Source of the DNA: Nitrosospira sp. 56-18
GTDB taxonomy: Bacteria; Pseudomonadota; Gammaproteobacteria; Burkholderiales; Nitrosomonadaceae
DNA length: 35,984 nucleotides
NCBI GenBank assembly: GCA_001899235.1
Contig: MKVR01000014.1
Coordinates: 122,361-158,344, forward strand
Direction: 5' to 3'
Shown: positions 1,384 to 25,823 of the stretch, in pieces
Numbering within the stretch: the first letter of the stretch is position 1
How the letters are laid out: the number at the start of each line of letters is the position of its first letter
Notes under the pieces: generated by a model
What the model saw: only the letters and a program-made list of their open reading frames with translations
Databases searched by the model: none
What the model was told of the DNA's origin: nothing
Position numbers and translations under genes: made by a program

Positions 1384-1387
1384 AACC

Positions 1388-2317: not shown

Positions 2318-2952
2318 AGACGCGGAAGTGGCAAGCCATCATTTTCGATTTCGATGGCGTGGTGGTGGAATCAGGGGATATCAAAACCCAGGCCTTTGCC
2401 AATCTCTATCAGGCCTATGGGGAAGCAGTCATGGCTGAGGTGGCCCGCTATCACCGGCTGCACGGAGGCATGTCCCGCTACGATAAATTTCATTACTTCC
2501 AGAAACACATCCTGATGAAGCCGCCGCTGACCCGCGAAGAAGAACGGGAGCTGGACCGGCGTTTCTCGGAACTGGTGATGGAAGCGGTCATTGCCAGCGA
2601 GGCTGTGCCGGGTGCTGCCGAATTGATCCGGAAGGAATTCTCGAGAATTCCCCTATTTGTCGCTTCCGGTACGCCGGAACCGGAACTGAACATGATCGTC
2701 CAGCGCCGGGGGCTTGCGGCCTACTTCACTGCGGTACGCGGATCACCGACGCCAAAGCATACTCTCATCGCAGATATTTTGGCCACCCATGGACTCCCGC
2801 CAGATCAGGTGCTGATGATAGGCGATGCACTTATCGACCTGCACAGCGCACGGCTTAACAAAGTGGCGTTCGTGGGCCGCGTGCGCCACGGCGATAGCAA
2901 TCCTTTCCCGGAAGATGTGGATGTCGTGCCCGATCTGATTCCGCTGGCCTGA
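2314..2952 (+). CDS. HAD-superfamily phosphatase (beta-phosphoglucomutase/Gph-like)
   Basis: A 212-residue haloacid dehalogenase-type hydrolase. Motif I is FDFDGVV (nucleophile Asp12, acid/base Asp14), motif II is the SGT following FVA, motif III is the Lys in PTPKH and motif IV is IGDALID. A helical cap lies between motifs I and II, as in subfamily IA phosphatases and mutases. It overlaps the epimerase by four bases and closes the cassette. A role dephosphorylating a sugar phosphate made by the upstream enzymes is plausible but inferred. Confidence 0.85.
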   Translation: MKTRKWQAIIFDFDGVVVESGDIKTQAFANLYQAYGEAVMAEVARYHRLHGGMSRYDKFHYFQKHILMKPPLTREEERELDRRFSELVMEAVIASEAVPGAAELIRKEFSRIPLFVASGTPEPELNMIVQRRGLAAYFTAVRGSPTPKHTLIADILATHGLPPDQVLMIGDALIDLHSARLNKVAFVGRVRHGDSNPFPEDVDVVPDLIPLA

Positions 2953-7624: not shown

Positions 7625-8578
7625 TCAAACCAGAGCCTCGCCGGTCAACCTCTCCAGAATGCGCAGCGACGAATGCGACGGATCGTTCATGGCTTCCACC
7701 GGCAGGTAGAATGTCTGATCCAGGCTGTGCTGCCCTGACATCGCGCCGTGCAACACCAGATCGGTGATGGCAATCCAGCTCGAACCGGGCGGGAACTCGA
7801 CAACCTTATGCGGCGCCGTGCGCTGGTACTCCTTGTCGCGCATGCCGAGGGCCCTTAGCGCCGCGATGTACTGATCATACTTGGTCTTGGTGCCATCCAC
7901 GATGCCCAGCCTGGCCAAAATGGAGGAAAGCCAGCTGGGCTTGCTGAGGCGCACCGAAGGCAGAAAGCGGCGCACGAAGGGCTCGAATGGTTCGCCAAGT
8001 TGCCAGACACGCGGCCGGCTGACGGGATGGATATTGGAGAATATGCGCAGCATCGCGCGTCCCTGCGTGGGATATCCATAGCTGGAATCGATATGGAGCG
8101 ACTGGGTATTGCTGCGTGCAAAAGGCCGATAAGTGACTCGTTTGCGATCCAGCTTATCCTGATAACTGGGGAATAACTGGAGGATGACACTCTCGGCCCA
8201 TTCGCCGTAGCGGGACATCATGGCCTGGATATCAGGACGTGCTGTGTCTTTGACCTGCGCCCGCATCATCTTCCCGCGCACCTGCGCATAATGGTATTTC
8301 TTGATGCGGCCCCGCGCCGGGTCGAAAATGATCGTCGGGCGCCCGTCTTCGACATCGGGCTCCCGGCTCAGGATCTTCGCGGTGTCCGACACCAGCTCCC
8401 GCTCCCGCTCGGATAGCTCGAATCCGCTTCTGGGCAGATAAATGACACCACCATCCTCCAGCGTCTCGATGGCCATGCGCCGCAGCTCCGGCGCCGATAA
8501 ATCGGCGCCCGACTCGATTGTCAGCACCTTCGCGGTTTCACCTTTTTCACGCACGGAAATTTGTTCATCACCTGCCAT
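7625..8578 (-). CDS. kdoO: Kdo hydroxylase (Fe(II)/2-oxoglutarate dioxygenase)
   Basis: A 317-residue protein matching the Kdo 3-hydroxylase family (PF11004), which converts Kdo to Ko in the LPS inner core, a change known in Burkholderia and Yersinia. The iron-binding HxD lies in SLHIDSSYGYP (His162, Asp164). A later His in VLHGAMSGQHS is a likely third ligand. Family-typical stretches such as IKKYHYAQVRGKMMR are present. The start at 8578 is chosen because GAGGG sits 7 bases upstream; an ATG at 8596 lacks a ribosome site. The gene stands alone, convergent with the fusion glycosyltransferase. Together the two suggest local specialisation for LPS core modification. Confidence 0.85.
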   Translation of the reverse strand: MAGDEQISVREKGETAKVLTIESGADLSAPELRRMAIETLEDGGVIYLPRSGFELSERERELVSDTAKILSREPDVEDGRPTIIFDPARGRIKKYHYAQVRGKMMRAQVKDTARPDIQAMMSRYGEWAESVILQLFPSYQDKLDRKRVTYRPFARSNTQSLHIDSSYGYPTQGRAMLRIFSNIHPVSRPRVWQLGEPFEPFVRRFLPSVRLSKPSWLSSILARLGIVDGTKTKYDQYIAALRALGMRDKEYQRTAPHKVVEFPPGSSWIAITDLVLHGAMSGQHSLDQTFYLPVEAMNDPSHSSLRILERLTGEALV

Positions 8579-8629
8579 GATATGCCCTCGATCCATCGAA
8601 GCTTGAAAAGTTGCTGCAAGATACCCAAA

Positions 8630-8959: not shown

Positions 8960-9153
8960 CCCCCCGCTATTTTACTGGCAAAATTCCATGGATGGGTTAT
9001 CTTGTGGAGACAGGAGAGGCTATTGAACAAATTGTGCTGCCTTGAACCCCATTCAATCCTTTATCCCCACGCCGCCACTTCTGCTTGCGTGGAGTCGGAC
9101 AGGCGCCACTGATTGAATGCGAACGCAACCCACGGAATGAAGCACGAGACGAG

Positions 9154-9157
9154 AGGA
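9154..9157 (+). promoter_or_regulatory. Ribosome-binding site that fixes an ATC start
   Basis: AGGA at 9154-9157, within GAGAGGAAA, sits seven bases before the ATC at 9165. No ATG, GTG, TTG or CTG in the correct frame lies between the in-frame stop at 9138 and the conserved nucleotide-binding loop. The spacing is ideal for initiation at ATC. Confidence 0.55.
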
Positions 9158-9164
9158 AACTGCT

Positions 9165-9971
9165 ATCAAAGCTATCATCCTTAGCGCTGGCCGCGGCAAG
9201 CGATTGCAGTCTTTAACCGAGAATATCCCGAAATGCCTCTTACCCATCTCAGGCAAGACCATTATAGAATGGCAGATCGATACCTTGCTCGCGGTAGGGA
9301 TCGAGCATTTCACCATCGTTACCGGCTTTCAGTCCGTTTCGGTTGAGGCGTTGCTGCGCCGGCGCTACGCCAACCGCGCGCACATCGATACCATCTTCAA
9401 TCCCTTCTTCGAAGTTTCGGATAATCTGGCGAGCTGCTGGCTTGCGCGATCCGTCATGAGCAGTGAGTTTCTGCTCTTGAATGGAGACACGGTATTCGAT
9501 GAGGAGGTGCCAAGGCAGCTGTTGAGCTTCTGCTCTGCGCCCATTACTCTCAGTATGAGTTATAAACCCGTCTACGACGAGGACGACATGAAGGTCCAGT
9601 TGGATGCGCGAGGATGGGTCAAGCATGTCAGCAAGAATTTAAGGCACGATCAAGTCGATTGCGAATCTATCGGCCTGCTCGCATTCCGCGAGCATGGGCC
9701 TCAACTGTTCCGCAGCGCGGTCGAAGAGGCATTGCGGGATCAGGCCAGACTGAAATCCTGGTATCTGTCAGTCATCGATGAGCTGGCAGGCAGGGAGCTG
9801 GTCGATGCGTGCGCCATTCCCCACCACTTGTGGTGCGAAGTTGATTTTCCGCCGGATATCCCGATAGCCGAAACGTTCCTGAAAGAAAGATATCAGGACG
9901 AGCTCGTACAGAAGTATCTCTTCGTAACCGAATCTGCCGAAACCGATCAGGCTAGCGGCGTCGAACGCTAG
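9165..9971 (+). CDS. Sugar/choline-phosphate nucleotidyltransferase, apparent ATC start
   Basis: A 268-residue nucleotidyltransferase of the GlmU/LicC-like NTP-transferase family. Starting at ATC 9165 the protein reads (M)KAIILSAGRGKRL, the family's standard N-terminus, with the nucleotide loop at residues 8-14 and the conserved Lys23 in PKCLLPI. LLNGDTVF supplies the metal-binding Asp. DNLASCWLAR resembles LicC-type CTP:phosphocholine cytidylyltransferases. The first conventional start in frame is TTG at 9204, which would delete the nucleotide-binding loop, so it cannot give a working enzyme. A true ATC start or an ATG-to-ATC change are the alternatives. It opens the nonulosonic acid-type cluster and probably activates a sugar- or alcohol-phosphate. 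Confidence 0.75.
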   Translation: MKAIILSAGRGKRLQSLTENIPKCLLPISGKTIIEWQIDTLLAVGIEHFTIVTGFQSVSVEALLRRRYANRAHIDTIFNPFFEVSDNLASCWLARSVMSSEFLLLNGDTVFDEEVPRQLLSFCSAPITLSMSYKPVYDEDDMKVQLDARGWVKHVSKNLRHDQVDCESIGLLAFREHGPQLFRSAVEEALRDQARLKSWYLSVIDELAGRELVDACAIPHHLWCEVDFPPDIPIAETFLKERYQDELVQKYLFVTESAETDQASGVER

Positions 9972-10077: not shown

Positions 10078-10206
10078 GCAAGGCGCGCCTTCACGGAAAA
10101 TTGAACACGCTCCGCGACGTAAGCTCCGGAAAAAAACCTGGGCAAGGCACTCTTATCCCGCCATTCGTTCTCTTTCAGGCATGATGCGGTATCGTTGGGC
10201 GCGGCA

Positions 10207-10923
10207 ATGCTGATCTATTCCCTTATCCCGGCGCGTGGAGGCTCGAAAGGCGTTCCCCATAAAAATATTCGCCTGTTGCGGGGCATACCCCTCATTGTGC
10301 ATTCCATTGATGTTTCGCTTGAATGCCCGTCCATTCAGAGGACTTTTGTCAGCACCGATTCCGAGCGCATTGCCGATATCGCGAAGAATGCCGGTGCCGA
10401 AATCCCTTTTTTGAGACCGCGCGAGCTGGCCCAGGATGACACGCGGGATTTGCCGGTTTTTCAACATTTCCTGGATTGGCTGTTGCAAAACGCTCTTCCA
10501 TTCCCCGATGCTGTCTTGCAGCTTCGCCCCACTTCTCCCTGCCGAAGCGTATCCAAGATTGAAGAAGCAGTGGAATTGCTGAAAAGAAATCCTGAGGCCG
10601 ACTCGGTTCGGGGTGTCGTCGAGCCCGAGCAAAATCCGTACAAAATGTGGCGCATGGAAGAGGATGGGTTCATGCGGCCACTATTGACCATTCCTGGCAT
10701 CCGGGAGCCATACAATGAACCCCGGCAGAACCTGCCGAGGGTTTTCTGGCAAACGGGCTATCTGGACCTGATTCGTACCCGAACCATTCTGGAAAACAAT
10801 TCGCTTACCGGAACACGTGTTTTACCCCTGCCCATCGACAGCACGGAGGCCATCGATATCGATGACGAATCTTCATTTCAACTGGCGGAATGGATACTGA
10901 CAAAGCGGGGCGGCAACCCGTGA
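10207..10923 (+). CDS. CMP-nonulosonate (acylneuraminate) cytidylyltransferase, NeuA-like
   Basis: A 238-residue cytidylyltransferase that would couple CMP to a sialic-acid-like 2-oxo sugar. The CTP-binding signature PARGGSK is intact at residues 8-14, followed by the expected PHKN at 17-20. LRPTSPCR and STEAIDIDD are the other typical family blocks. ATG 10207 is preferred to TTG 10195 because it places the beta strand directly before the loop; neither has a strong ribosome site. Its stop overlaps the GTG of the next gene. With the NeuB-like gene at 12736 it would form the last two steps of CMP-nonulosonate synthesis. Specificity (Neu5Ac, legionaminic, other) is not readable. Confidence 0.85.
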   Translation: MLIYSLIPARGGSKGVPHKNIRLLRGIPLIVHSIDVSLECPSIQRTFVSTDSERIADIAKNAGAEIPFLRPRELAQDDTRDLPVFQHFLDWLLQNALPFPDAVLQLRPTSPCRSVSKIEEAVELLKRNPEADSVRGVVEPEQNPYKMWRMEEDGFMRPLLTIPGIREPYNEPRQNLPRVFWQTGYLDLIRTRTILENNSLTGTRVLPLPIDSTEAIDIDDESSFQLAEWILTKRGGNP

Positions 10924-11906
10924 AAGCGCTGGTGGTAGGCCTGGGATCAATCGGAGTCCGGCATGTCAATAATCTGCATGCCCTCGGGGTTCGTGAGCTC
11001 GGCGTGGTAAGAACCCGGAATCATCCTCCTCCCGGAAAAATTGCTGCAAGAGAACTCGCTGTTTTCCATGATCTGGATCTGGCCCTTGCTCAAAAATTTG
11101 ATCTCGTAGTGGTGGCCAATCCGACATCGCTGCATTTGGAAACACTCGTCAAAGCCCTCGACGCCGGCGCCCATGTTTATGTCGAAAAACCTGTCGCTCA
11201 CGTGGAGGAGTGCCTGGCCGAACTCAAACCCCGCCTGATACCCGGCGGACCAAAGGTTCTGGTGGGATGCCAGCTCCGCATGCATCCGGGGTTGATGAAA
11301 ATAGGTGAATGGATCAACCAGAATAGACTTGGGAAGATCTACTCGGTGCAGGTGGATCTGGGAGAATACCTCCCTGGCTGGCACCCGTGGGAGGACTATC
11401 GGCAGAGCTACGCCGCGCTGGCCGATCAGGGCGGGGGTGTCATTCTGACGCTTATCCATGAGCTGGATTATCTACAGTGGCTTTTTGGAAAACCTGAAAG
11501 CGTCTATGCGATCGGCGGCCATCGAACTTCGCTTGAAATCACGGCGGAGGATACGGCGCTCATTACTTTTGAAACCCGGCAGGGTGTCGGTATTCAACTC
11601 CGGATGGATTACTGGAGAAAGCCGCCTGTCCGGCGCATGAGCATAGTCGCCGAAAAAGCGCTCGTCGACTGGGATTATTACGCTCGCGCTGCCACCCTGA
11701 AGCAGGATGGACAGATCCTGGACGAGATGAAACTGCCTCCGACCTGGGACCGGAACGAGTTGTTCATATCGATGATGCGGGAGTTTCTCGAGAATCTCTC
11801 CGGAGAATCCGCTCCGCGGGTTACTTTGCAAGATGGCATCGATACGCTTGTAACGGCTCTGGCGGCAAAGAAATCCATCGAAACCGGCCAGGTGATACGC
11901 ATATGA
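10920..11906 (+). CDS. Gfo/Idh/MocA-family oxidoreductase
   Basis: A 328-residue NAD(P)-dependent sugar oxidoreductase. The Rossmann motif GLGSIG is at residues 7-12 and the family's EKP motif at 89-91 (VYVEKPVAH). A C-terminal Gfo/Idh domain follows, with LGEYLPGWHPWEDY and LIHELDY. GTG at 10920 overlaps the preceding stop as GTGA and puts the Rossmann strand at residue 3. An in-frame ATG at 10890 would add ten unlikely residues. It is coupled to both neighbours and probably oxidises or reduces a sugar precursor of the nonulosonic acid. Similar genes accompany NeuA/NeuB pairs in flagellin- and O-antigen-glycosylation loci. Confidence 0.8.
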   Translation: MKALVVGLGSIGVRHVNNLHALGVRELGVVRTRNHPPPGKIAARELAVFHDLDLALAQKFDLVVVANPTSLHLETLVKALDAGAHVYVEKPVAHVEECLAELKPRLIPGGPKVLVGCQLRMHPGLMKIGEWINQNRLGKIYSVQVDLGEYLPGWHPWEDYRQSYAALADQGGGVILTLIHELDYLQWLFGKPESVYAIGGHRTSLEITAEDTALITFETRQGVGIQLRMDYWRKPPVRRMSIVAEKALVDWDYYARAATLKQDGQILDEMKLPPTWDRNELFISMMREFLENLSGESAPRVTLQDGIDTLVTALAAKKSIETGQVIRI

Positions 11907-12739
11907 GCCAAGCCTACCAAGGCACTCCCTTTGACCTCACGGGCCGTGTCGTGCTCATCAGCGGCGCTGCTGGCCTTCTAGGCAGGGAATTTGCGCTTGC
12001 TGCCGCATCGGCCGGGGCACACCTTGTGCTGGGGGACGTGAACAGGAAACAGCTCGAATCGCTGTCGAGTGAAATCACCTCCCTCCATCCACTCGCAAAA
12101 ACGTTGATCCAGATCCTGGACGTAACCGATGCGAATTCCTGCCGATCCATTGCCGAGCTATGCGAAATGCAGTTCGGACGGATCGACGCCGTCATCCATA
12201 GCGCCGCGATTGATCCGAAATTTGAAGGATCTTCCGATACCGCCGGCTTTTCAAGATTCACCGAATTCCCGCTGGAGCTCTGGCAGTCATCCATCGACGT
12301 CAACCTGACCGGCGCCTTTCTGCTCTCGCAGGCGACATGCAGAGTAATGGAAAAAGCCGGAAAGGGATCCATTGTTTTTCTGGGATCCAACTACGGACTG
12401 GTGGGACCCGATCAGCGCATCTACCGGAAAGCGGGCCAGGAACGCCAGACCTACAAGCCCGCTGTTTATTCCGCCTGCAAATCCGGCCTTCTCGGATTGA
12501 CGAAATTCCTGGCGGCCTATTACATGAATACATCCATCCGGGTCAACCTGCTCACCCCCAGTGGTGTCCGGAATCAGCATGATGAGGAATTTGTTCAAAA
12601 TTACTCGTCCCGGACTATCCTGGGGCGAATGTCGAAAAAAAATGAATACCAAGGAGCAGTCATTTTTCTAGTCTCGGATGCCTCAAGTTACATGACGGGG
12701 GCGAATCTTGTTATTGATGGAGGATGGACAGCATTATGA
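11903..12739 (+). CDS. Short-chain dehydrogenase/reductase (PtmA-like)
   Basis: A 278-residue classical SDR. The cofactor motif GAAGLLG occupies residues 21-27, Ser162 lies in LGSNYG and the catalytic Tyr189/Lys193 in VYSACKSG. The C-terminus YMTGANLVIDGGWTAL is typical of the fold. It overlaps the oxidoreductase by four bases and the NeuB-like gene by four bases. Its style, with LISGAAGLLG and the VGPD insertion before the active Tyr, resembles SDRs called PtmA in flagellin-modification clusters, which act in amino-sugar supply for legionaminic acid. That link is by resemblance and context only. Confidence 0.8.
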   Translation: MSQAYQGTPFDLTGRVVLISGAAGLLGREFALAAASAGAHLVLGDVNRKQLESLSSEITSLHPLAKTLIQILDVTDANSCRSIAELCEMQFGRIDAVIHSAAIDPKFEGSSDTAGFSRFTEFPLELWQSSIDVNLTGAFLLSQATCRVMEKAGKGSIVFLGSNYGLVGPDQRIYRKAGQERQTYKPAVYSACKSGLLGLTKFLAAYYMNTSIRVNLLTPSGVRNQHDEEFVQNYSSRTILGRMSKKNEYQGAVIFLVSDASSYMTGANLVIDGGWTAL

Positions 12740-13629
12740 GTTTACGTTACCAAAAACCTGTTGTCGTCGCCGAAGTGGGATGCAATCACAAAGGTGATTT
12801 TGAAATTGCCAAGACATTCATCAGGACGGCGAAGGAGTTTTGCGACGTGGACATCGTCAAGTTTCAGAAACGGACCGTCAATGAGCTCCTCACCCAGCAG
12901 GAATACGAATCCCCTCACCCCAACCCCATGCATTCCTACGGCAAGACCTACGGCGAGCACCGGGAAGTCCTGGAGTTTAATCTTGAGCAGCATCGGGAAC
13001 TCAAGCGCTATTGCGATGAACTGGGGATTGGCTATGGCTGCTCGGTCTGGGATATTACGGCAGCCAAGGAAATTTTGTCACTGGAGCCCGCCTACCTGAA
13101 AATTCCATCCGCAACCAACACAAACTTCGATCTTTTGAACTATGTTTGCGATCATTACGCCGGCGAAGTCCATATTTCCGTGGGAATGACGACCAACCAG
13201 GAAGAAAATGCCATTGTGGCCCTGTTCGAGGAGAAAGGTCGCGCCAGGAGCCTGATTCTGTACTCGTGCACCTCCGGCTACCCTGTTCCTCCGGAGGATG
13301 TTTGCCTGCTGGAAATCCGGAGGCTGATCAAGAGCTACCAGTCCAGCATCGGCGGAATCGGATTTTCCGGCCATCACAATGGAATTTGTATTGACGTTGC
13401 TGCTTATACGTTGGGCGCGCAGATCGTCGAGAGGCATTTCACCCTCGATCGCACTTGGAAGGGAACCGACCACTCAGCCTCGCTGGAGCCCGACGGATTG
13501 CGAAAGCTGGCGCGCGACCTGCGGAATGTTCACAAGGCGCTGAGATACAAGGAGCAGGAGATTCTGGAAATCGAATCCGCCCAACGAAAAAAGCTAAAAT
13601 GGAAAAGCGGCCCCGAGCACAAGCAATAA
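12736..13629 (+). CDS. NeuB-like nonulosonate synthase lacking the SAF domain
   Basis: A 297-residue protein of the sialic acid synthase family, which condenses phosphoenolpyruvate with an N-acetylhexosamine-type sugar to give a nine-carbon 2-oxo acid. Family landmarks: VVAEVGCNHKGD at the N-terminus, DIVKFQKRT, YLKIPSATNTN, SVGMTTNQEE, and ERHFTLDRTWKGTDHSASLEPDG near the end. The usual synthases run to about 340-350 residues with a C-terminal antifreeze-like (SAF) domain; this one stops directly after the barrel. The start at 12736 overlaps the SDR stop (ATGA), with GGAGG at 12719-12723. An ATG at 12724 has no spacing from that site. Confidence 0.8.
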   Translation: MSLRYQKPVVVAEVGCNHKGDFEIAKTFIRTAKEFCDVDIVKFQKRTVNELLTQQEYESPHPNPMHSYGKTYGEHREVLEFNLEQHRELKRYCDELGIGYGCSVWDITAAKEILSLEPAYLKIPSATNTNFDLLNYVCDHYAGEVHISVGMTTNQEENAIVALFEEKGRARSLILYSCTSGYPVPPEDVCLLEIRRLIKSYQSSIGGIGFSGHHNGICIDVAAYTLGAQIVERHFTLDRTWKGTDHSASLEPDGLRKLARDLRNVHKALRYKEQEILEIESAQRKKLKWKSGPEHKQ

Positions 13630-13688: not shown

Positions 13689-14150
13689 ATGAGTGTTAAA
13701 TCAGATGGAGATACGCTGATTTTTAACGCAACGATGCGAAAGTTCGGCGCGCCTCAGACTATCATTCACAGATATCGATACTGGAGTGTCATGCTGCGCC
13801 CTGTCCAGGTAACGCTTGGCTCGGTAATCCTGGCGGCGCATGAACCGGCCCATGCGTTTTCCCAGCTCGGCAAAGCAAGCTTTACCGAATTGCACGAAGT
13901 CACAGCACAACTGGAGCCTGCCTTGGCAAAAGCATTCGATTATGACAAATTGAATTACCTGATGCTGATGATGGTTGATCCCGATGTGCACTTCCATGTC
14001 ATCCCTCGTTACGCTGCGCCGCGGTATTTTAATGGCGGGGAATATGTAGATGCCGGCTGGCCCGGGCCGCCCGACTTCAGCCGGCCAAACGAAGCAGGTG
14101 CCGAAGCAAACCACCATATCATGGATCGCATTATTTCCTGCTGGGCATGA
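13689..14150 (+). CDS. HIT-family nucleotide hydrolase/transferase
   Basis: A 153-residue histidine-triad protein. The active-site region reads PDVHFHVIPRY (His101, His103). The first His of the triad is Asp99, a substitution worth noting. RYWSVMLRPVQVTLGSVIL is the usual N-terminal strand region. These proteins split or transfer nucleotide monophosphates from dinucleotides or nucleotide-sugar-like compounds. GGAG lies about six bases upstream of the ATG. It follows the NeuB-like gene by 59 bases and may act on nucleotide by-products of the sugar cluster, which is inference. Confidence 0.75.
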   Translation: MSVKSDGDTLIFNATMRKFGAPQTIIHRYRYWSVMLRPVQVTLGSVILAAHEPAHAFSQLGKASFTELHEVTAQLEPALAKAFDYDKLNYLMLMMVDPDVHFHVIPRYAAPRYFNGGEYVDAGWPGPPDFSRPNEAGAEANHHIMDRIISCWA

Positions 14151-14415: not shown

Positions 14416-15135
14416 ATGATCCAACTTGTCCTGTTACGGCACGGGGAAAGCACTTCGAACCGGGATAAGAATTTTACCGGCTGGAATGATGTAGCGTTAA
14501 GTCAGCGGGGCGAACAGGAAGCGACGCACGCCGGCCTTCTGCTCAAGGAGGCAGGATATCGCTTTGATCTGTGTTTTACTTCCGAACTCAGACGCGCCAA
14601 GGAAACCCTGCGTATCGTATTGTCGACGATGCAGGCCGGCGAAATGGAAATAAGGCAGAATTGGCATCTGAACGAACGTCACTATGGCGCGCTCGAAGGA
14701 ATAAGCCGATTGAGCGCAGTAAGGAAATTCGGCATCTGGTCGATTATCGGCACTCAATTGAGCTTTAATGGCTGTCCCCCTCCGCTCGACCCCACTGATT
14801 CGCGTTTTCCCGGAAATCAATCACGTTATTCGGAGATCGACAGGAAAGAATTGCCGCTTTCCGAAAGCATGAACCAGACACTCCTGAGAGTGGTGCCTTA
14901 CTGGAAGAAAGCGATCCTGCCTGAGATCCGGGATGGAAAGCGGCTTCTCATCGTCTCTCACCAGCATGTTCTACGCACGCTGATGATGGAACTGGACGGT
15001 TTTTCCGCCATCCATCTGATGACCTTGTCCATTTCTACCGGCCGCCCATTGGTGTATGAACTCGACGACGAGCTGAAGCCTGTCCGGCACTACTATATTG
15101 ACCGCCGGGTGGAAAGCCACACCTATTCCTCATGA
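14416..15135 (+). CDS. Histidine phosphatase, phosphoglycerate mutase (GpmA)-like
   Basis: A 239-residue member of the histidine phosphatase superfamily, closest in layout to cofactor-dependent phosphoglycerate mutase. RHG with the phospho-accepting His9 starts it. [10 protein letters not shown] and [11 protein letters not shown] are mutase hallmarks, and [11 protein letters not shown] ends it. The second catalytic His is in [10 protein letters not shown], where GpmA has AHGNSLR, so the Gly after the His is Gln. Such divergence suggests a paralogue with a changed substrate rather than the glycolytic enzyme. Its place in the sugar cluster hints at a sugar- or glycerate-phosphate substrate. Confidence 0.75.
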
Positions 15136-18111: not shown

Positions 18112-18327
18112 ATGACGAAATTGCCCGATAATCTGCTGGCTTCTCCATTGCATGATTTTGCCGGAAGAGGCCTGCGCATCGATATCGGGAGACTCGCCGA
18201 AAGGCTTGATCCAAGCATCAGGGATGCGCAGTTTTTCCGTTGCGCACATGGCATTTTTGTTTTTCAGCCAGCGGGAATCGAAGCTGAACAGGACCCCAAA
18301 CCCGGCCAGGAGATTCAGTTCGAATAA
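18112..18327 (+). CDS. Small hypothetical protein, coupled to both neighbours
   Basis: A 71-residue frame that fills the only gap between the PLD-like gene and the cytidylyltransferase-KdsC gene. Its stop TAA shares a base with the downstream ATG (TAATG at 18325-18329). A TTG at 18094 would overlap the upstream stop as TTGA, an alternative start. No membrane segment or known motif was found; the tail is acidic. The exact packing argues for a real coupled gene, and the lack of a recognised family argues for caution. Confidence 0.5.
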   Translation: MTKLPDNLLASPLHDFAGRGLRIDIGRLAERLDPSIRDAQFFRCAHGIFVFQPAGIEAEQDPKPGQEIQFE

Positions 18328-19460
18328 TGCGATGGGTAGCCTATGTGCCCTTGTGCGGCGGTTCCCAATTAATCGCCCCAGAAAAAGTGCGCTACGTAGG
18401 CGGACGGCCGTTATTCGCATGGAGCCTGGAGCAAGCCATTTCGTCAAAATGCTTTGACGAAGTGTATGTAGCCGTGGATTCGCCAGAAATCAGCAGGGAA
18501 GTGTCGAGCGAATTCTCGTCGGCAGTAACAGTTCTGAATCACCCTTCCCCATACCCGCAAGTAAGCACGGAAACCGCCCTGCTCGAGTTTCAGCAACGAG
18601 TCGCCCCTTTCGATGTCGTTTGCCTGATTCATGCCACATTTCCACTGACCAGCACAGATGATTTCCGGGCAGCTAAAAGCAGTTTTCTCGCGGAAGACCT
18701 GGACTCGCTTGTCACCGTCACGAAATCGACGCGCTTCGTCTGGACCATGGCGGGTGCACCCGCCATTCATCATCTGGCAACACCGCCCCAGCCTCGCGAA
18801 GCGTACTCATATTTCATGGAAAATAAAGCGTTTTACCTGACTCGGGGCATGTTGCTTAAAAATTATGGCTGCCATGTAGGTGGCCGGACCGGAATTTATG
18901 AAATGCCGGCCGGCGCCGAAATGGATACAGGAACAGGCTGGCTCGCTCTGGAGCGGCTCTTGTTGAAGCGGCTATCCAAAACCAGCGCGAATGCTTCCCG
19001 GATTAAAGCGCTGGTGCTTGATGTAGACGGAACGATGACAGATGGCGGTATGTATTATGGCCCTGCTGGTGAAGCTCTGAAAAAATTCAATACCCGCGAT
19101 GCCCATGGCCTGCAATTGCTGCGAGAGAACGGAATCAGGATCGGGGTCATTAGCACTGAGAAGAGTCCCGCTGTGGAAGCGAGGATGAAAAAACTGAACA
19201 TCGACGAATACCATCCAGGGGTACGAAATAAGCTTCCTCTTCTTCTGGAGCTGGCAAGGCGATGGAACATCGCTTTGGGAGATATGGCATATATCGGCGA
19301 TGACCTCGGCGATCTGGAATGCCTGAACCGGGTGGGTGTTGCTTTTTGTCCCGCTGATTCCGTTCCCGAAATCCTGGAACACGTCCATTATGTATGCAAA
19401 GGCCGAGGGGGTCATGGCGCAGTGCGTGAAGTTTGCGATCTTATTCTAAAAAAGTGCTGA
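18327..19460 (+). CDS. Cytidylyltransferase-KdsC fusion (NeuA-like + HAD phosphatase)
   Basis: A 377-residue two-domain protein. Residues 1 to about 220 are a CMP-nonulosonate cytidylyltransferase fold, but the CTP loop reads PLCGGSQLIAPEK instead of PARGGSKGxxxKN, losing the Arg and first Lys. The following VGGRPLFAWSLEQA and AEMDTGTGW blocks are retained. Residues about 225-377 are a KdsC-type HAD phosphatase: LDVDGTMTDGG (Asp232, Asp234), ISTEKS, and GDDLGDLECL. The arrangement parallels the phosphatase-fused CMP-sialate synthetases of animals and some bacteria. It could dephosphorylate a nonulosonate-9-phosphate made by the NeuB-like enzyme. Its cytidylyltransferase half may be weak or structural, since an intact NeuA-like enzyme is encoded at 10207. 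Confidence 0.8.
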   Translation: MRWVAYVPLCGGSQLIAPEKVRYVGGRPLFAWSLEQAISSKCFDEVYVAVDSPEISREVSSEFSSAVTVLNHPSPYPQVSTETALLEFQQRVAPFDVVCLIHATFPLTSTDDFRAAKSSFLAEDLDSLVTVTKSTRFVWTMAGAPAIHHLATPPQPREAYSYFMENKAFYLTRGMLLKNYGCHVGGRTGIYEMPAGAEMDTGTGWLALERLLLKRLSKTSANASRIKALVLDVDGTMTDGGMYYGPAGEALKKFNTRDAHGLQLLRENGIRIGVISTEKSPAVEARMKKLNIDEYHPGVRNKLPLLLELARRWNIALGDMAYIGDDLGDLECLNRVGVAFCPADSVPEILEHVHYVCKGRGGHGAVREVCDLILKKC

Positions 19461-19478: not shown

Positions 19479-20462
19479 TCAGCGCAACAATCCGCGCCGC
19501 AACAATTTCCAGAAAACCTTATAACCCCATAGAACCGGATGGCGCCGCAACATCGGAGAAACCTCGACGTGAACGCCGGTGTGGCGCTCTATCTTCCATA
19601 CAGCATAACTGATGCCGTCCTGGAACGTGAAGGCCGCCTTTGCCAGCCGAAGAATAGACAGAATGCGTCCCTGCCAGCGCCGCAATTTCCAGTGGCGCAA
19701 TGAACGAAGCCGAGTATCAGCGCCAATTTCGCATCGATAGTTGCCATTCGCCAAAGCGATGAGCCTGCCCTCGAACACGCGTCCAGCACATGCATACGCG
19801 GTCAGTCTCGCATAATCGTCCAGGTTGAGTTGCGCAAGAAGGCGCGCGCGCGTTTCCCGTTCAGGCCGCAATTCCGCGGCATAGGTAAGGCTCAGTCCTC
19901 TTGACCAGATCTCTTCGACCGTTACCTCTCCCGATTCAAAAGCGGAAACGACCTGATCCAGAAATGTGGTAACTGCATGGGCAAGCGAGAAGTGTATGCG
20001 CTGGCGCACGATTTCGTCGCGCACGTAAAGCAAACGCACCGGTTGAGCAAACCGGGCCCAGAGATAGGGATGGAACCACCGCCGAGTTCCACGCTCGAAA
20101 TCCTCGGTCGAGACAACCGCATATTTTGCGCGTAATGTTTTCTCCTGAGCGGATATCTCGAGATAGAAGACATTTGGCGGTAGCCACGCATTCAAAGAGG
20201 CGAGATGGCGCTGCCGGTAAGCACTATGGTAGCTGTTCACCACGACATAGAAATCCGCGATCCCATCCGCAATTTCGCGGGCGCGCAGACAGGAGCCGTA
20301 AAGGAGAACAGCGTCCAGCGAAACGCCAAAACGCGCTCTCAATTCTTCGACAAAAAAGGAAAAATCAGCAGCTACCGGCAGGGAACTGAGATGTGCCATC
20401 TCGGCGACGAGACCATGGGGTAGCTCTTTATCGAGAACCGCTGGACTGCCTGTCATTGCCAT
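19479..20462 (-). CDS. Tam41-like nucleotidyltransferase (candidate CDP-lipid synthase)
   Basis: A 327-residue nucleotidyltransferase-fold protein. YGSCLR (residues 55-60) and the acidic Asp67/Asp70 in DGIADFYVVV form the catalytic strand. KYAVVS (113-118) and ARFAQPV (136-142), followed by SLTYAAELRPE, match the order of KYGVVS, GRLxKPV and SYxGDxR in Tam41/Mmp37, the CTP:phosphatidate cytidylyltransferase. There is no membrane helix. It is the last gene of the lipid operon, three bases after the lipid kinase, whose phosphorylated product would be its natural substrate. The family match is by eye. A toxin-type or antibiotic nucleotidyltransferase is less likely given the context and length. 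Confidence 0.6.
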   Translation of the reverse strand: MAMTGSPAVLDKELPHGLVAEMAHLSSLPVAADFSFFVEELRARFGVSLDAVLLYGSCLRAREIADGIADFYVVVNSYHSAYRQRHLASLNAWLPPNVFYLEISAQEKTLRAKYAVVSTEDFERGTRRWFHPYLWARFAQPVRLLYVRDEIVRQRIHFSLAHAVTTFLDQVVSAFESGEVTVEEIWSRGLSLTYAAELRPERETRARLLAQLNLDDYARLTAYACAGRVFEGRLIALANGNYRCEIGADTRLRSLRHWKLRRWQGRILSILRLAKAAFTFQDGISYAVWKIERHTGVHVEVSPMLRRHPVLWGYKVFWKLLRRGLLR

Positions 20463-20465
20463 GAC

Positions 20466-21464
20466 TTATTCAGGCGTCTTCAGCGCCATAAAAGTGATGG
20501 GGCCTGCCGCCGAGATGCGCAATGGGCCGCTGTCGCTTGCAGCCTTGTAGGATTCGCCGTCAACGATATACTCGTCATCCATGAGCACTTCCAGCACGTG
20601 GGTATTGCAGCTGAAATAACCATCCCGTTCTTTAAGGATCTGGCCGCGCCCCCTCAATACCGACAACAGTGAATGCCAGGGATTTTTTCGATACTGTTCG
20701 ACAAATGTAATATGCAGCGGCCCCTGTTCCCGCCCCCAGTATGGGCGCATATCAAACAGCAAGCGATCCAGGGAGCTGGCAAAAAAAAAGGTGTAGGTTC
20801 CGCTTCGAACCTTATTGCCGGGCTTGGCAATCGACATATTGACCGGCGCCCATGCCCCATTGCGACGCCCGAAAACCACGCCTGCAAGATAACCAAGGGT
20901 AATGAGAGCTGAATATATTTCCCCTGTAATTCCCAATTTTTTTATCCTGCTTTGGGAGAATATCACAGCCCGGGCTATAAGTCCTGCGCCGAGAAACATC
21001 CCATACACCTTTTCCGCCCCGGCCTGTTCAACGCAAAGCACATGTCTTTGCAGTACTGAAGGCGCCGTGTGTTCCAGCAGATATTCCTTCAGGCGATAAA
21101 GGATGAGCTCCGGCTTGTCATGCATTCCAAGATCCATTGCCGTCATGTTGGTCGTCCCTCCGGGAACGATCGTGAGCATGGGCCAGCGTTCTGGTGGCTG
21201 CATGGCAAACAGGTGACATAGCGTTCCCTGCACCGTGCCGTCGCCCCCAACGATGATCAGCAAATCGATGTCGACAACCAGAAATGTCTCTAACGATTCC
21301 TTGATCTCGGACGCGTTCGTGACTTCCATGCAGATTACGCCTGGAATGCCGAAAGCAGCCCGTCTCACACTATTCCTGCGCTTTCGGATACGTCCGCTGA
21401 GAGGATTTAAAAGCACTCCGATTCTCGCAACTCCAGACCGCAATCTGTTGATTCTCTGCTCCAA
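20466..21464 (-). CDS. Lipid kinase of the diacylglycerol kinase family (possible ceramide kinase)
   Basis: A 332-residue DAGK-catalytic-domain kinase: NPLSG at residues 20-24, GGDGT at 73-77 and PGGTTNMTAMDLG shortly after. It would phosphorylate the hydroxyl of a lipid (diacylglycerol, sphingoid base or ceramide). The start is TTG 21464 with AAGG (21472-21475) seven bases upstream, ten bases after the CDP-alcohol transferase gene. Flanking genes for a Tam41-like and a CDP-alcohol transferase place it in a headgroup pathway. In Caulobacter a DAGK-type enzyme phosphorylates ceramide; whether this one does is inferred from the YghO-like acyltransferase at the head of the operon. Confidence 0.75.
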   Translation of the reverse strand: MEQRINRLRSGVARIGVLLNPLSGRIRKRRNSVRRAAFGIPGVICMEVTNASEIKESLETFLVVDIDLLIIVGGDGTVQGTLCHLFAMQPPERWPMLTIVPGGTTNMTAMDLGMHDKPELILYRLKEYLLEHTAPSVLQRHVLCVEQAGAEKVYGMFLGAGLIARAVIFSQSRIKKLGITGEIYSALITLGYLAGVVFGRRNGAWAPVNMSIAKPGNKVRSGTYTFFFASSLDRLLFDMRPYWGREQGPLHITFVEQYRKNPWHSLLSVLRGRGQILKERDGYFSCNTHVLEVLMDDEYIVDGESYKAASDSGPLRISAAGPITFMALKTPE

Positions 21465-21474
21465 CTAAAAACCT

Positions 21475-22686
21475 TTATAAACTTTTATAAATTTTCAATG
21501 GGGTAAAAATCCGGGCAACAAACTTTCCGTCATTCTCACCCGGCACGATGTCCTCGAACCAGGAACGTAACGGCCCATGGGACCGGCGCATCTGCCAGGC
21601 CATCATTACCCGGACGAAAAGAAACAGGGTTGAAAGAAGATGCCAGACGATTACCGCCCACAGTCCGGCGTCCGGCCTGCCCATAAGCCACCCGGCCGTC
21701 AACAGTATCAGGTTGGGATTACGTCGCGCAGTGATCAGCCGATTGAAGGAATCGAGCGGGCGCCATATGAAAATATCGAATGATGCAATCCAGAACTGAA
21801 AAACCCCTTCACATAACCGGCCACCAATGTAACCGATAAGTATCAGTGAAAACAAGATGGTCAAGTCGGCTACCTGGACCGATTCGGGTATCAGCCCGAT
21901 AGCCCAGGCCATATACCAGAGCGGGGGATGAATGATATCCAGACCATGATCCAGCGCATCCCCAACGCGGCTGGACGTTACCGTAACGCGAGCCAGTTTC
22001 CCGTCCACGGTATCGAAAAAGGTCATCAGCCACGCCATTATCAGCCCTGCGCCGAAATAGGCGTGCCCAAAACCGATTCCGGCTGCCAGGGTAAGCACCA
22101 GGCTAAGCAAGGTAACCTGGTTGGGGCTCAAGCCCCAGCGTACACAAAGACGCGTAACCCAAAAGGCGGGCATGGGCCAGAGCCATTTGGTGACCAGATC
22201 GGTTACACCTTTGTAGGATCGCACGAATAACTCTGACTCGAGCTGCGAGCGGTTGCATTTGCTGATAGGCAACACGTAAGGCTTGTCTCTTTTCTTGAGA
22301 TTTCGCTGCAGGCCCAGTACATCGAGATCCTCCGTGGTATAGCGCGGCGGAATGGAGTAGTTCTTCTCTTCTGCCCCGTTTTTCAGATACCCCAGCGCGG
22401 AGGTCGCATCGATAATGGAAACCCGCATCGCCGCAGGCTGGCCTTCATTCGTAACAAGCGTCAGGTATGTTTTCGCGCTGATCAGCGTTGCCAGTACTCT
22501 GTCATCAAACAAATAATCTGCCCGCAATAGCAGTACCGCTGCCTGACCCGGGATTTGGGCGATCTTGTCCACCAGCTTGGCCTGCGCCCGCGACGCCACC
22601 ATGCGCCGGAGACGCTCGCGGCCGCTCAACCCCCAGATATCGATTTCACTGTCGCCAATGATATAAACATAAATTGTGATGGGCAT
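21475..22686 (-). CDS. CDP-alcohol phosphotransferase with degenerate nucleotidyltransferase N-domain
   Basis: A 403-residue protein in two parts. Residues 1 to about 125 look like a decayed NTP transferase (IYVYIIGDSEIDIWGL...RERLRR and LLLRADYLFDD). Residues about 150-390 are a multi-spanning CDP-alcohol phosphotransferase with an exact D-x2-DG-x2-AR-x8-G-x3-D-x3-D motif from Asp225 to Asp250. The layout recalls the IPCT-DIPPS type fusion. The start at 22686 is chosen because the protein reads MPITIYVY there; a GTG at 22779 would overlap the upstream permease gene. It joins the phosphorylated or CDP-activated lipid and headgroup, with its active site on the cytoplasmic face of the inner membrane. 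Confidence 0.8.
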   Translation of the reverse strand: MPITIYVYIIGDSEIDIWGLSGRERLRRMVASRAQAKLVDKIAQIPGQAAVLLLRADYLFDDRVLATLISAKTYLTLVTNEGQPAAMRVSIIDATSALGYLKNGAEEKNYSIPPRYTTEDLDVLGLQRNLKKRDKPYVLPISKCNRSQLESELFVRSYKGVTDLVTKWLWPMPAFWVTRLCVRWGLSPNQVTLLSLVLTLAAGIGFGHAYFGAGLIMAWLMTFFDTVDGKLARVTVTSSRVGDALDHGLDIIHPPLWYMAWAIGLIPESVQVADLTILFSLILIGYIGGRLCEGVFQFWIASFDIFIWRPLDSFNRLITARRNPNLILLTAGWLMGRPDAGLWAVIVWHLLSTLFLFVRVMMAWQMRRSHGPLRSWFEDIVPGENDGKFVARIFTPLKIYKSL

Positions 22687-22768
22687 GGAGTCTTCTTTTA
22701 TACTTATATGCGGGCTCGAATTCGCGCCGGATATCAAATTTGGGTCATTGAGTAGCGATGTTCGCCAT

Positions 22769-23833
22769 CTAAAATACACGTCGCAGCCAGACGTTTGCGA
22801 GAGCTATCAGTATTGCGCCAGGAAGTAGTGCCGTCAGCGCGGGATTCAGATGCCACAATAATCCGAGATTCGAAAAAACCTGATCGAGCAAGTATACGGA
22901 AATACCCAGCATGGCTGCGAGCACAAGCCGATTCCCCAGTCCCGTCCGTACCGACCCAAAAACAAAAGGGATCGAGAGCAGCAGCATGGCAATGGTGGTC
23001 AGAACCACGCCGGCCTTTCGCCACAAGGCTAGGGCATAAGCCTCCGCCTCCTGCCCGGTGGCGCGCAAAAAGCGCACATGCAGAAACAATTCGACGGGTG
23101 AAAGACTATCCGGCTCCTTGGTCAGCGTGGAAATATCATCCGGGTTCAGGAAAGACTTCCATTTCAGGGAATCCGCAGTGACCGACTCGATGCGGTTCTC
23201 CGAAAATGTCCGGGTCGTGACTTCGCTCAGCTCCCACATATCGCCGTCAATGAAATCGGCATGCTTGGCGCGGATATGAGCCAGTAGGAAACCATCCTTG
23301 TCAAAATTCATTATCTCGATATCCGCTGCTCTTCCAGCATGCAGCATTTCGCCGATGCGCAATATGTTCCTTTCATCCCGCGTCCAGATTCCGAGATTCT
23401 TGCCAAGCGAAGCGCTCTTGTCGAGAGCGGCTGCCTTCCAGGAAATCGCTTTTTGCTGAAGTTGCGGAGCGATGAACTGTTCCAGCAAGGCGATAAACAA
23501 CAGGAGGATCAGTCCCATTCCCAGCGGGGCCATGCTGATTCTGATGGGGGACATGCCGGCCGCTCGCAGCGCGGTCAATTCGGAGGCAATCGCCAGCCGG
23601 CCAAGGGCAATGACGTTGCCCAGCAGCGCAACAAAAGGCGCAAGCTGGATAAAGCGGCGCGGCAGCAGGAATGCCATATGCAGGAATGCGTCCTGTACCT
23701 GAAAAGTGCCCTTCCCGACGGCATCCAGTTGCTCCAGCAGATCGAGAAACCCGAACAATGGCAGCAAGACGGCGGCTGCGATTGCCAGGCCGATCGCAAC
23801 CTGCAATGCCAGGTAACGATCAACCGTTATCAT
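22769..23833 (-). CDS. LptG/LptF-family permease (YjgP/YjgQ)
   Basis: A 354-residue membrane protein of the LPS-transport permease family. An N-terminal pair of hydrophobic stretches starts at MITVDRYLALQVAIG and LLPLFGFLDLLEQLDAVGKG. A large periplasmic jellyroll-like middle follows (about residues 150-270), then C-terminal helices ending LLPGAILIALANVWLRRVF. The start at 23833 overlaps the upstream NTP transferase by 14 bases; an open extension to 23983 has no LptG character. A single LptG-like gene with no LptF neighbour inside a lipid operon suggests export of the lipid made here rather than LPS. That is inference from position. Confidence 0.8.
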   Translation of the reverse strand: MITVDRYLALQVAIGLAIAAAVLLPLFGFLDLLEQLDAVGKGTFQVQDAFLHMAFLLPRRFIQLAPFVALLGNVIALGRLAIASELTALRAAGMSPIRISMAPLGMGLILLLFIALLEQFIAPQLQQKAISWKAAALDKSASLGKNLGIWTRDERNILRIGEMLHAGRAADIEIMNFDKDGFLLAHIRAKHADFIDGDMWELSEVTTRTFSENRIESVTADSLKWKSFLNPDDISTLTKEPDSLSPVELFLHVRFLRATGQEAEAYALALWRKAGVVLTTIAMLLLSIPFVFGSVRTGLGNRLVLAAMLGISVYLLDQVFSNLGLLWHLNPALTALLPGAILIALANVWLRRVF

Positions 23834-24671
23834 CGGAATGACGAAAATCGTTGCTGGAATTCGACTGTCGTTCAGCCAGGATGGATTCGACAAGCAACAG
23901 ATCGGCAACCTTGTCCACGTCGATTCCTGCCTGCGGATAGGGCAGGAACACCGGGGAAACCTTGATGCCCGTCCTTGCAGCAACGGTTTTCAATCCCCGG
24001 TCGACCGTCAGCAGGCCCGTCACGTAGAAAAGTACGGTAATCAGCCCGAAGACCTGTGCAATCAGTTGCCAGGGCCGTTTCCGCAATTCTTCCGCTCGCC
24101 GCCAGAACGAAACCAGTCCGCGGCCCCGAGGATTGAGGAAGGCGTACAAATTACATCCGCACACTTGCGCATCGCGCAATTTTATAACCGTCCTTCTTGC
24201 TCCCGGAAATGCCGCCGTGATATCGCCATACGCAACCGCTCCCACTGCCGCATCGCCTTCCTGCTTTTGCGACTCCGTAAGGAAATACTGAACGATCGCG
24301 GGCGTCAGCAACGCATGGTCGGCGGTTGTCAGCAAAACAGGCGCATCACGCTCGATTTTCGCAAGACAGCTATCAGCGCTGCGGCTTGGAGAATCGAGAT
24401 TCGGAAGCCAGGTGACGCGGCCGCTTGCAATACGGTCATCCAGTTCCGGGCATGTCTGTATCGCGTGCTTTGGCGGACCGCAAATAATGATGGATTTGAT
24501 CATGCCGCTCGCCTCCAGTGCATCGAGCACGCGGATGATCATCGGTATTCCACGAACGGGAGCAATCGCCTTGCAGGCCGAACCCGTTCTGGCGGCGACC
24601 GGATCGCCGGCAGCACGATCCGCGGCAAGGACTACGGCCGTAAATTGTCTTCTTTCATCCATCGGATTCAT
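23820..24671 (-). CDS. NTP transferase (MobA/GlmU-like), possible headgroup-activating cytidylyltransferase
   Basis: A 283-residue nucleotidyltransferase fold: TAVVLAADRAAGDPVAARTG with the following CKAIAPVRGIPMI (nucleotide loop and Lys), LLTTADHALLTP (catalytic Asp) and DVDKVADLLLVE at the end. It also has one hydrophobic segment, VFGLITVLFYVTGLLTV near residues 205-222, an unusual addition that may anchor it to the membrane. It starts nine bases after the acyltransferase gene and overlaps the permease gene. Together with the CDP-alcohol phosphotransferase it could supply a CDP-activated headgroup such as CDP-glycerate, as a phosphoglycerate cytidylyltransferase is reported to do in Caulobacter ceramide diphosphoglycerate synthesis. 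Confidence 0.65.
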   Translation of the reverse strand: MNPMDERRQFTAVVLAADRAAGDPVAARTGSACKAIAPVRGIPMIIRVLDALEASGMIKSIIICGPPKHAIQTCPELDDRIASGRVTWLPNLDSPSRSADSCLAKIERDAPVLLTTADHALLTPAIVQYFLTESQKQEGDAAVGAVAYGDITAAFPGARRTVIKLRDAQVCGCNLYAFLNPRGRGLVSFWRRAEELRKRPWQLIAQVFGLITVLFYVTGLLTVDRGLKTVAARTGIKVSPVFLPYPQAGIDVDKVADLLLVESILAERQSNSSNDFRHSDDNG

Positions 24672-24680
24672 GGTGGCTAT

Positions 24681-25823
24681 TCAGCTTCGATCATGCGCCA
24701 GTGTCTTTCCGTAGATCCGGTAACGCTTGTACTCCTTGCAGCCCATGTACTTGAGAATACTGCGCATGGGCTTGTTGTCCTCGAGTATCCAGGACAGTTC
24801 CAGCGCCTGTATTCCCCTGGAAATCGCCGCCTGCCGCGGGGCATCGATCACCATCAAGGCGAGCGCTATGCCAAGCGGCGTATTCTGAAACTGCCTGCGC
24901 ACCCCCATCAACGGGATCCTGCCTGTACGAACTCCCCTGGATTTGAGATGATGGATTAGCCCTATCCAGCCCAAAGGGAATAAATTTCCATTCAATCCGG
25001 CAAAAATTTCATTCAGGTTCGGCAATCCCGCCATGAAGGCCGCGGGAATACCATCGACCTCCGCGATCTGGACGAAATCGTCCGGAACAAGGAGGCGAAG
25101 GCTGGTGCCCAGTTCGGCAAACTCGGCCTCGGTGAAAGGCACAAAACCCCAGTTTTCCGACCATGCATCGTTGAATATATCACGCAGGGTTTCCATTTCT
25201 TCGCCGAATCTATCCCTCCTCAATTTCCGCAATACGATCTGCTTCGAAAACTTTTCTTTCAAGCTGACCATCAATTGGGGTGGCGAATCGTCCACCTTTA
25301 CCCAATAGGCAAGCATATCCTTCACCGGCCGATAGCCGTGCTGTTCCAGGAGGGGGCCATACCACGTCCGGGAATGGGGCATCATCACCATCGGCGGCGT
25401 ATCAAAACCTTCCACCAGAATGCCGCATTCCTGATTGATGGATAAATTGAACGGTCCCGTGACATGCATCGTACCGCGGGCGGCCAGCCAGTCTTCCGCG
25501 CTGGATAGAAGCGCATCCAGCACCTCTGCATCCTCTATCATTTCAAGCAGACCAAAATGGCCGGTGCGCGGACCATAACGGTCCCGATGGAGTTGATCAA
25601 CCTGAGCGCTGATCCTGCCTACTGGTTCGTTATTCCGATATGCGACCCACGCCTGCCATTCCGCATGCTTCAGAAATGGGTTGAATTTCGAAAAATGCAG
25701 GCGCCGCTCCAGCCGCAGCGGCGGAACCCATAGCGGATCATCGGCATATATGCGCCATGGAACATCGATAAATGTTCCCATCTCCCGCCAGCTGGCAACA
25801 GGACGGACGACTATCGGCCCCAT
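24681..25823 (-). CDS. GNAT-fold acyltransferase, YghO/bacterial ceramide synthase-like
   Basis: A 380-residue protein of the YghO family. Typical N-terminus IVVRPVASWREMGTFIDVPW with IYADDPLWVPPLRLE. Core block MHVTGPFNLSINQECGILVEGFDTPPMVMMPH is a hallmark of the family. The C-terminal part, with GIQALELSWILEDNKPMRSILKYMGCKEYKRYRIYGK, is a GNAT-like acyltransferase domain. The Caulobacter member acts as bacterial ceramide synthase, N-acylating a sphingoid base. ATG 25823 is chosen because family members begin about there; TTG 25862 is the other option. It is the first gene of the operon with the lipid kinase and phosphotransferase. Assignment as N-acyltransferase is by family resemblance and context. 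Confidence 0.65.
   Translation of the reverse strand: MGPIVVRPVASWREMGTFIDVPWRIYADDPLWVPPLRLERRLHFSKFNPFLKHAEWQAWVAYRNNEPVGRISAQVDQLHRDRYGPRTGHFGLLEMIEDAEVLDALLSSAEDWLAARGTMHVTGPFNLSINQECGILVEGFDTPPMVMMPHSRTWYGPLLEQHGYRPVKDMLAYWVKVDDSPPQLMVSLKEKFSKQIVLRKLRRDRFGEEMETLRDIFNDAWSENWGFVPFTEAEFAELGTSLRLLVPDDFVQIAEVDGIPAAFMAGLPNLNEIFAGLNGNLFPLGWIGLIHHLKSRGVRTGRIPLMGVRRQFQNTPLGIALALMVIDAPRQAAISRGIQALELSWILEDNKPMRSILKYMGCKEYKRYRIYGKTLAHDRS

Follow-up and report, generated by a model that had tools for sequence, protein, structure and literature searches.

Which lipid is built by a bacterial operon that holds a permease of the lipopolysaccharide (LPS) transport system among genes for a phospholipid headgroup, and could that permease carry it outward? 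The question is raised by six consecutive genes of Nitrosospira sp. 56-18, located on contig MKVR01000014.1 within a stretch of 35,984 nucleotides (positions 122,361-158,344; the whole stretch is called the window below). All six are read from the minus strand, from 25823 to 19479, and their coordinates give successive spacings of 9 bases, a 14-base overlap (with the ATG at 23833 taken as the lptG start), 82, 10 and 3 bases. This is the compact layout, with gaps of 3-10 bases or overlaps and 82 bases before the phosphotransferase gene, that had been described in the initial annotation, made from the sequence alone. In order of transcription the genes are:

24681..25823, minus strand: cerS, N-acyltransferase of the YghO/bCerS type (CC_1154 type), first gene of the operon, assigned by identity to BL21 YghO and by GNAT PF00583
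23820..24671, minus strand: MobA-like nucleoside triphosphate (NTP) transferase with a membrane segment, of CC_1153 type by position and similarity (PF12804, PDB 2dpw)
22769..23833, minus strand: lptG, no other LptG gene having been found in the genome; sister in the tree to the second, spt-linked copy of Escherichia coli BL21 (TIGR04408, LptF_LptG)
21475..22686, minus strand: cpgA, CDP-alcohol phosphotransferase with an N-terminal NTP-transferase-like domain (PF01066, motif)
20466..21464, minus strand: cerK (cpgB), DAGK-type ceramide kinase with a TTG start (PF00781, GGDGT motif)
19479..20462, minus strand: cpgC, cytidylyltransferase of predicted Tam41 fold, proposed CDP-ceramide synthase

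The answer favoured here, with good confidence, is an anionic phosphosphingolipid of ceramide-phosphoglycerate type that the operon both synthesises and exports; in the outer leaflet it would probably stand in for LPS.

The genome (3.29 Mb in 54 contigs, completeness 99.89%) encodes the ceramide backbone. The cerS product is 49.6% identical across 375 amino acids to YghO of E. coli BL21, where yghO adjoins spt, and it passes the GNAT model PF00583 (21.2 bits, cut-off 20.7). One of the 17 PF00155 matches in the genome is a serine palmitoyltransferase (SPT), scoring 595.7 bits against NCBIfam NF047599 (cut-off 500); its best PDB match is the serine palmitoyltransferase 2x8u (5e-122), presumably from Sphingomonas, and ketobutyrate ligases follow only from 1.5e-67. 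Its gene is the last of an operon on contig C47:

C47: 3789-5651: aasR
C47: 2870-3781: cerR
C47: 2584-2850: acpR
C47: 1400-2587: spt

The products are 47% (AasR), 44% (CerR), 50% (AcpR, over 50 amino acids) and 54% (Spt) identical to the proteins encoded beside yghO in E. coli BL21(DE3). All genes of the rhodobacterial ceramide pathway are therefore present, spt together with acpR and cerS in another unit. The initial annotation had proposed a ceramide synthase as first gene and a phospho-sphingolipid or related lipid as product, and had suggested a genome search for SPT and CerR; both enzymes were found, and the SPT and the likeness of the first gene to the spt-adjacent yghO support these proposals. 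Its description of the operon as a complete pathway does not stand, as other contigs carry aasR-cerR-acpR-spt and lptF, and cpgD is 10 kb off in the window.

Pfam backs the domains first proposed for the operon, Tam41_Mmp37 (PF09139) alone being slightly under its gathering cut-off (22.7 against 24 bits). Because of this score CpgC is described here as working like Tam41 and is not filed as a member, although its predicted fold is that of Tam41. Mitochondrial and bacterial Tam41 CDP-diacylglycerol synthases are about 16% identical to CpgC and use phosphatidate, whereas the proposed substrate of CpgC is ceramide-1-phosphate. The ceramide kinase (DAGK_cat PF00781, 47.5 bits, with the GGDGT motif) and CpgC form a single fused protein in all 21 long frames read from relatives, which favours CDP-ceramide as the intermediate. 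In one genome (G004, L096:4880-6934) the kinase lies within a frame of 684 amino acids, about half of which has no match to any reference. CpgA carries the CDP-OH_P_transf domain (PF01066, 34.3 bits) with the motif DTVDGKLARVTVTSSRVGDALDHGLD; Foldseek matched its model, of low confidence (pLDDT 59), to AF2299 (3.4e-11) and to IPCT-DIPPS 4mnd (1.7e-8), and given that confidence the structural match of the N-terminal domain is only a lead. The NTP transferase (NTP_transf_3 PF12804, 56.3 bits) is 33-39% identical to the cerS-adjacent gene product in five clusters from other classes (L073, L075, L078, L086, L087), such clusters being mostly alphaproteobacterial as judged from codes and gene order. 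This protein was considered as CpgD and rejected, since its PDB match is TTHA0179 (2dpw, 2.3e-15) and the CpgD ortholog is a separate gene:

9147..9971, plus strand: cpgD ortholog, CTP:phosphoglycerate cytidylyltransferase (43% identity to the CpgD of L086, residues kept)

In Caulobacter, CCNA_01210 is a CTP:phosphoglycerate cytidylyltransferase (PMC12275187) and its structure has been given (PMC13228409). The protein at 18865-19626 of L086 starts with MQPVKTL and ends with EAEAV, as encoded by the published cpgD primers (PMC12275187), and matches all eight published positions checked, R16, K26, T88, N90, T93, G111, D112 and W201 (PMC12275187, PMC13228409). In the published structure R16, K26 and D112 belong to the active site, and N90 and T93 contact CTP. 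Used as a query against the genome of the window, it found 9147-9971 at 6.0e-55 and the next best match at 1.7e-8. The window protein, 43% identical to this Caulobacter-type CpgD, keeps the equivalents of R16, K26, N90, G111, D112 and W201 and has serine in place of Thr88 and Thr93. The window thus holds the CPG2 headgroup genes, with ceramide kinase, CpgC, CpgA and the CC_1153-type gene in the operon and CpgD apart. The Tam41-like gene had at first been paired with the phosphoglycerate cytidylyltransferase of Caulobacter; the gene is CpgC, and that enzyme is the product of 9147-9971.

The order cerS, NTP transferase gene, lptF, lptG on one strand is kept in 21 of 21 relatives read (including L011-L015), which argues against a chance arrangement; among the loci compared, the window alone has no lptF between the NTP transferase gene and lptG. 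A survey was made across the family, an ammonia-oxidising one that named hits point to as Nitrosomonadaceae. Its 120 genomes, sampled from a larger set and including 99 rated as good quality, yielded CpgC in 118, SPT in 117 (at 1e-100) and LptD in all 120. Genes of the LptF/LptG family (PF03739) numbered two in 108 genomes, three in seven, four in one, one in one and none in three. LpxC, the committed enzyme of lipid A synthesis and here the mark of an LPS producer, was found in none of the 120, the genome of the window included, while among the 14 controls the search found it in E. coli, Caulobacter, Synechococcus and Bacteroides. In Nitrosomonas europaea only lpxK has been found, eight of the nine Kdo2-lipid A genes not being found, and for Nitrosospira multiformis only lpxA is cited; the loss has been attributed to genome reduction (PMC3087551). 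Since LpxC was not found, the phosphosphingolipid probably replaces LPS in the outer leaflet, and judging by gene content such a replacement is likely for the family. In a wider sample of 398 genomes of the phylum (cut-offs 1e-8 for CpgC and 1e-80 for SPT), CpgC occurred in 27, spread across 11 family codes, SPT in 36 and both in 26, a co-occurrence with a p-value of 1.6e-31 when the relatedness of genomes is ignored. The one genome with CpgC and no SPT at 1e-80 (G463) has an SPT-like frame (32%) adjoining CpgC, and ten genomes have SPT without CpgC.

LptG of the operon scores 320.7 bits against TIGR04408 (cut-off 240) and 211.8 bits against LptF_LptG. Two PF03739 genes were found in the genome, operon lptG and one lptF, and a dedicated second transporter is thereby ruled out; the permease, counted in the initial annotation as a transporter added to the pathway, is the sole LptG found. 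The lptF gene stands on contig C2 next to the following gene:

L146:7844-9598: MsbA-like ABC exporter, adjoining the lone lptF on contig C2

This exporter is a candidate flippase for the ceramide lipid. One relative (G034, L093) has kept the operon copy of lptF and has a second, 74% identical to the lptF of the window genome, beside the same type of exporter. With cpgA and kdsC-like genes nearby, this stretch of L093 looks like a split second lipid locus.

The LptG tree has 48 rows, among them every one of the 16 from the family and 15 of the 30 from Burkholderiales. In it the family joins the spt-adjacent second LptG of BL21 with support 100/98, and the Burkholderiales rows group by themselves. 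In the LptF tree the family and the second copy of BL21 are joined with support 100/100. Approximately unbiased (AU) tests were run on 22 LptG rows (9 of 30 Burkholderiales, 6 of 16 family and 5 of 15 other-class rows) and 23 LptF rows (9 of 26, 7 of 17 and 5 of 15, respectively), with groups named after a first tree had been viewed. A clade of the family and Burkholderiales without the second copies of BL21 was rejected for both proteins (p 0.011 for LptG, 0.00033 for LptF). Deeper placements are less sharply separated: for LptG, a Burkholderiales clade including the second BL21 copy (p 0.507) stands beside another placement (p 0.516), and for LptF the Burkholderiales copies branch beside the pair formed by the family and BL21, as its sister, at 92/91, a node not starred, with alternatives at p 0.058 and 0.138. 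The long branches of EcLptG, EcLptG2 and the other-class rows weaken these readings, and by identity the LptG of the window is 31.1% to the second BL21 copy against 34.2% to the best Burkholderiales row. A reading in which the family retained permeases of sphingolipid type after losing those of LPS type was dropped as too strong in view of the 92/91 node and of the poorly separated LptG placements. In one scenario the family would have adopted permeases from an spt-linked source. In the other, its native pair would have been turned to the new use, and a relative of that pair would have entered E. coli along with the spt locus. Either direction ties this type of LptF/LptG to sphingolipid genes.

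Downstream of cpgD in the window are two further genes that may belong to the pathway:

13689..14150, plus strand: gene for a HIT-like protein (CC_1157 position), homologous to a gene between cpgA and lptF2 in other-class clusters
14416..15135, plus strand: phosphoglycerate mutase homolog (TIGR01258, 252.8 bits, cut-off 81.7)

The HIT-like protein has no Pfam match of its own; it is 42% identical to L086:14250-14678, which passes PF01230 (23.7 against 21.5), 46% to its homolog in L087 and 51% to that in L078. CC_1157 has been called probably unrelated to the pathway (PMC11324152), but in L078, L086 and L087 the gene sits with cpgA on one side and lptF2 on the other, which suggests that it is a member of the CPG2 pathway. 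The mutase homolog passes none of the models for particular mutases, scoring best with PRK14115 (262.9 bits, cut-off 305). An enzyme dedicated to supplying 2-phosphoglycerate has been considered (PMC12275187), and as 2-phosphoglycerate is the preferred substrate of CpgD, the homolog could be that supplier. In Nitrosospira sp. Nl5 (L011) cpgD, the HIT-like gene and the mutase homolog follow one another, convergent to the operon. In the window, PseF-, oxidoreductase-, SDR- (short-chain dehydrogenase/reductase) and NeuB-like genes of nonulosonate type (10195-13629, plus strand) separate cpgD from the other two.

From these genes a route can be proposed. By orthology, AasR would load AcpR, Spt would catalyse the condensation of serine with the acyl chain, and the completion of dihydroceramide would fall to CerS and CerR. 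The ceramide kinase would form ceramide-1-phosphate, which CpgC would convert with CTP into CDP-ceramide, and from this the first phosphoglycerate would be added. CpgD would turn 2-phosphoglycerate, possibly supplied by the neighbouring mutase, into CDP-glycerate, used by CpgA for the second headgroup, and LptF and LptG would hand the finished lipid to the Lpt bridge and LptD.

Several points weigh against the ceramide-phosphoglycerate reading. The order of the CerR and CerS reactions is disputed (PMC11324152), and CpgA of Caulobacter is dispensable for the first headgroup (PMC12275187, PMC11324152). The cpgA gene is absent from the stretches read in seven of the 21 relatives, one of which (G034) has it elsewhere, near its second lptF. 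The window cpgD has no in-frame ATG, GTG or TTG before its conserved nucleotide motif (9090-9204), pointing to an unusual start codon or a broken leader. LpxC was the sole lipid A gene searched for, with controls that include no named betaproteobacterium, and the window has a homolog of Kdo hydroxylase (7625-8596, minus strand; PF11004, 289 bits), which is odd if the cell has no Kdo-lipid A; the acceptor of Kdo, or of a sugar like it, may be some molecule other than lipid A. The trees, finally, are silent on the direction in which the spt-linked pair passed between the family and E. coli, which leaves the standing of the reading unchanged because it does not rest on direction.

That the pathway ends at another headgroup, such as ceramide phosphate, phosphoglycerol or a sugar, is an unlikely though appreciable possibility: substrates differ among COG1213-type cytidylyltransferases (PMC12275187), nonulosonate-type genes surround cpgD and cpgA is missing from the seven stretches just mentioned, but the eight published CpgD positions are identical or changed from Thr to Ser in the window protein, and a phosphoglycerate mutase homolog is near cpgD in Nl5. 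It seems less probable still that LPS and the phosphosphingolipid are produced side by side in these cells, the LPS through a lipid A route lacking a recognisable LpxC, and that one LptF/LptG pair carries both. The Kdo-hydroxylase homolog, the retention of LptD in all 120 genomes, the NCBIfam labelling of both permeases as LPS export equivalogs, the lone lpxK or lpxA of two species (PMC3087551) and a betaproteobacterial origin of the permeases, which the trees allow, would all fit such cells, while the lack of LpxC hits in 120 of 120 genomes, the failure to find eight of the nine genes for Kdo2-lipid A in N. europaea (PMC3087551) and the sister relation of LptF and LptG to spt-linked copies speak against them. 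Ordinary LPS-linked genes that merely resemble a sphingolipid set, with no ceramide made, might be suspected at first look, as the operon includes an LptG and several of its products fall in generic fold families; with an SPT above its curated cut-off, the aasR-cerR-acpR-spt order and, across the phylum sample, SPT accompanying CpgC in 26 of 27 genomes, this is hardly credible. Returning to the ceramide-phosphoglycerate lipid, a wider proposal, to which we lean only slightly, is that betaproteobacterial ammonia oxidisers as a family lack lipid A and have an outer leaflet of CPG-type phosphosphingolipid, perhaps with Kdo- or nonulosonate-like caps made by the neighbours of cpgD; LptF, LptG and LptD would carry the sphingolipid, and CerK-CpgC would make CDP-ceramide as a counterpart of CDP-diacylglycerol.

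The gene set itself is not new, as Nitrosomonas eutropha has been reported in 2024 to have orthologs of at least 13 of the 17 CPG2-cluster genes, in three regions (PMC11324152), its ceramide set being Neut_0458-0461 and Neut_1100 (PMC9386255). This species, apparently of the same family, has its ceramide genes grouped and cerS apart, as here; the available sections of both accounts make no mention of the missing LPS genes of the family or of the kinase-CpgC fusion. In Caulobacter crescentus the CPG2 cluster spans CC_1168-CC_1152 (CCNA_01210 and neighbours; CC_ and CCNA_ numbers were matched through gene functions shared between papers). It includes the ceramide kinase CC_1160, CC_1161 with a CDP-diacylglycerol synthase domain, the CDP-alcohol transferase CC_1159, the nucleotidyltransferases CC_1153 and CC_1152, and CC_1156 and CC_1155 among second copies of LPS transport genes (PMC11324152). 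Counterparts of CC_1152-1157 and 1159-1165 are present here, judged through similarity or position in L086 and L087, which have the Caulobacter gene order, and for CpgD by the published residues and primers; aasR-cerR-acpR-spt has the order of CC_1165-1162. Unlike in Caulobacter, the genes are spread over three contigs, cerS, lptFG, cpgA, cerK and cpgC are combined in one operon (lptF being on C2 in the window genome), there is one LptF/LptG set and not two, LpxC was not found, and LptF and LptG are sister to the second copies of BL21 and not to other-class cluster copies. The yghO/spt locus of E. coli BL21(DE3) encodes CerS, AasR, CerR and Spt 44-54% identical to those here, along with the second LptF and LptG; it has no annotated cpg gene among 28 features in the stretch compared, and unlike the window genome E. 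coli has another lptF-lptG elsewhere.

Beyond the known set, an LpxC-negative family that has kept SPT, CpgC and LptD may, on genomic grounds, be coated with sphingolipids instead of LPS, which has a bearing on the surface of the bacteria behind nitrification. A literature search of partial coverage turned up no publication linking missing LPS to sphingolipids in this family, nothing on LptG with CDP-alcohol genes and, by titles and abstract openings, nothing relevant on Nitrosospira with ceramide. The path that sphingolipids take to the outer membrane is described as not known (PMC11324152), and in Caulobacter the matter is complicated by the presence of LPS alongside a second Lpt set. The present family, in which LptD is kept, 108 of 120 genomes have just two LptF/LptG-family genes and LpxC was not found, would lend itself naturally to testing whether Lpt proteins export sphingolipids, and the kinase-CpgC fusion lets the unsolved CpgC step be tested directly with one protein.

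A promoter scan 5′ of cerS gave no signal exceeding shuffled sequences. At the start of the window, phosphoglycerate dehydrogenase-like, SDR and haloacid dehalogenase (HAD) genes (294-2952, plus strand) form a group that is found near the operon in nine of the 21 relatives read, among them all seven whose stretches had no cpgA. Convergent to cpgC is a fusion of a CMP-sugar-type cytidylyltransferase with a KdsC-like phosphatase (18327-19460, plus strand), which also adjoins cpgC in L098, L099 and L105.

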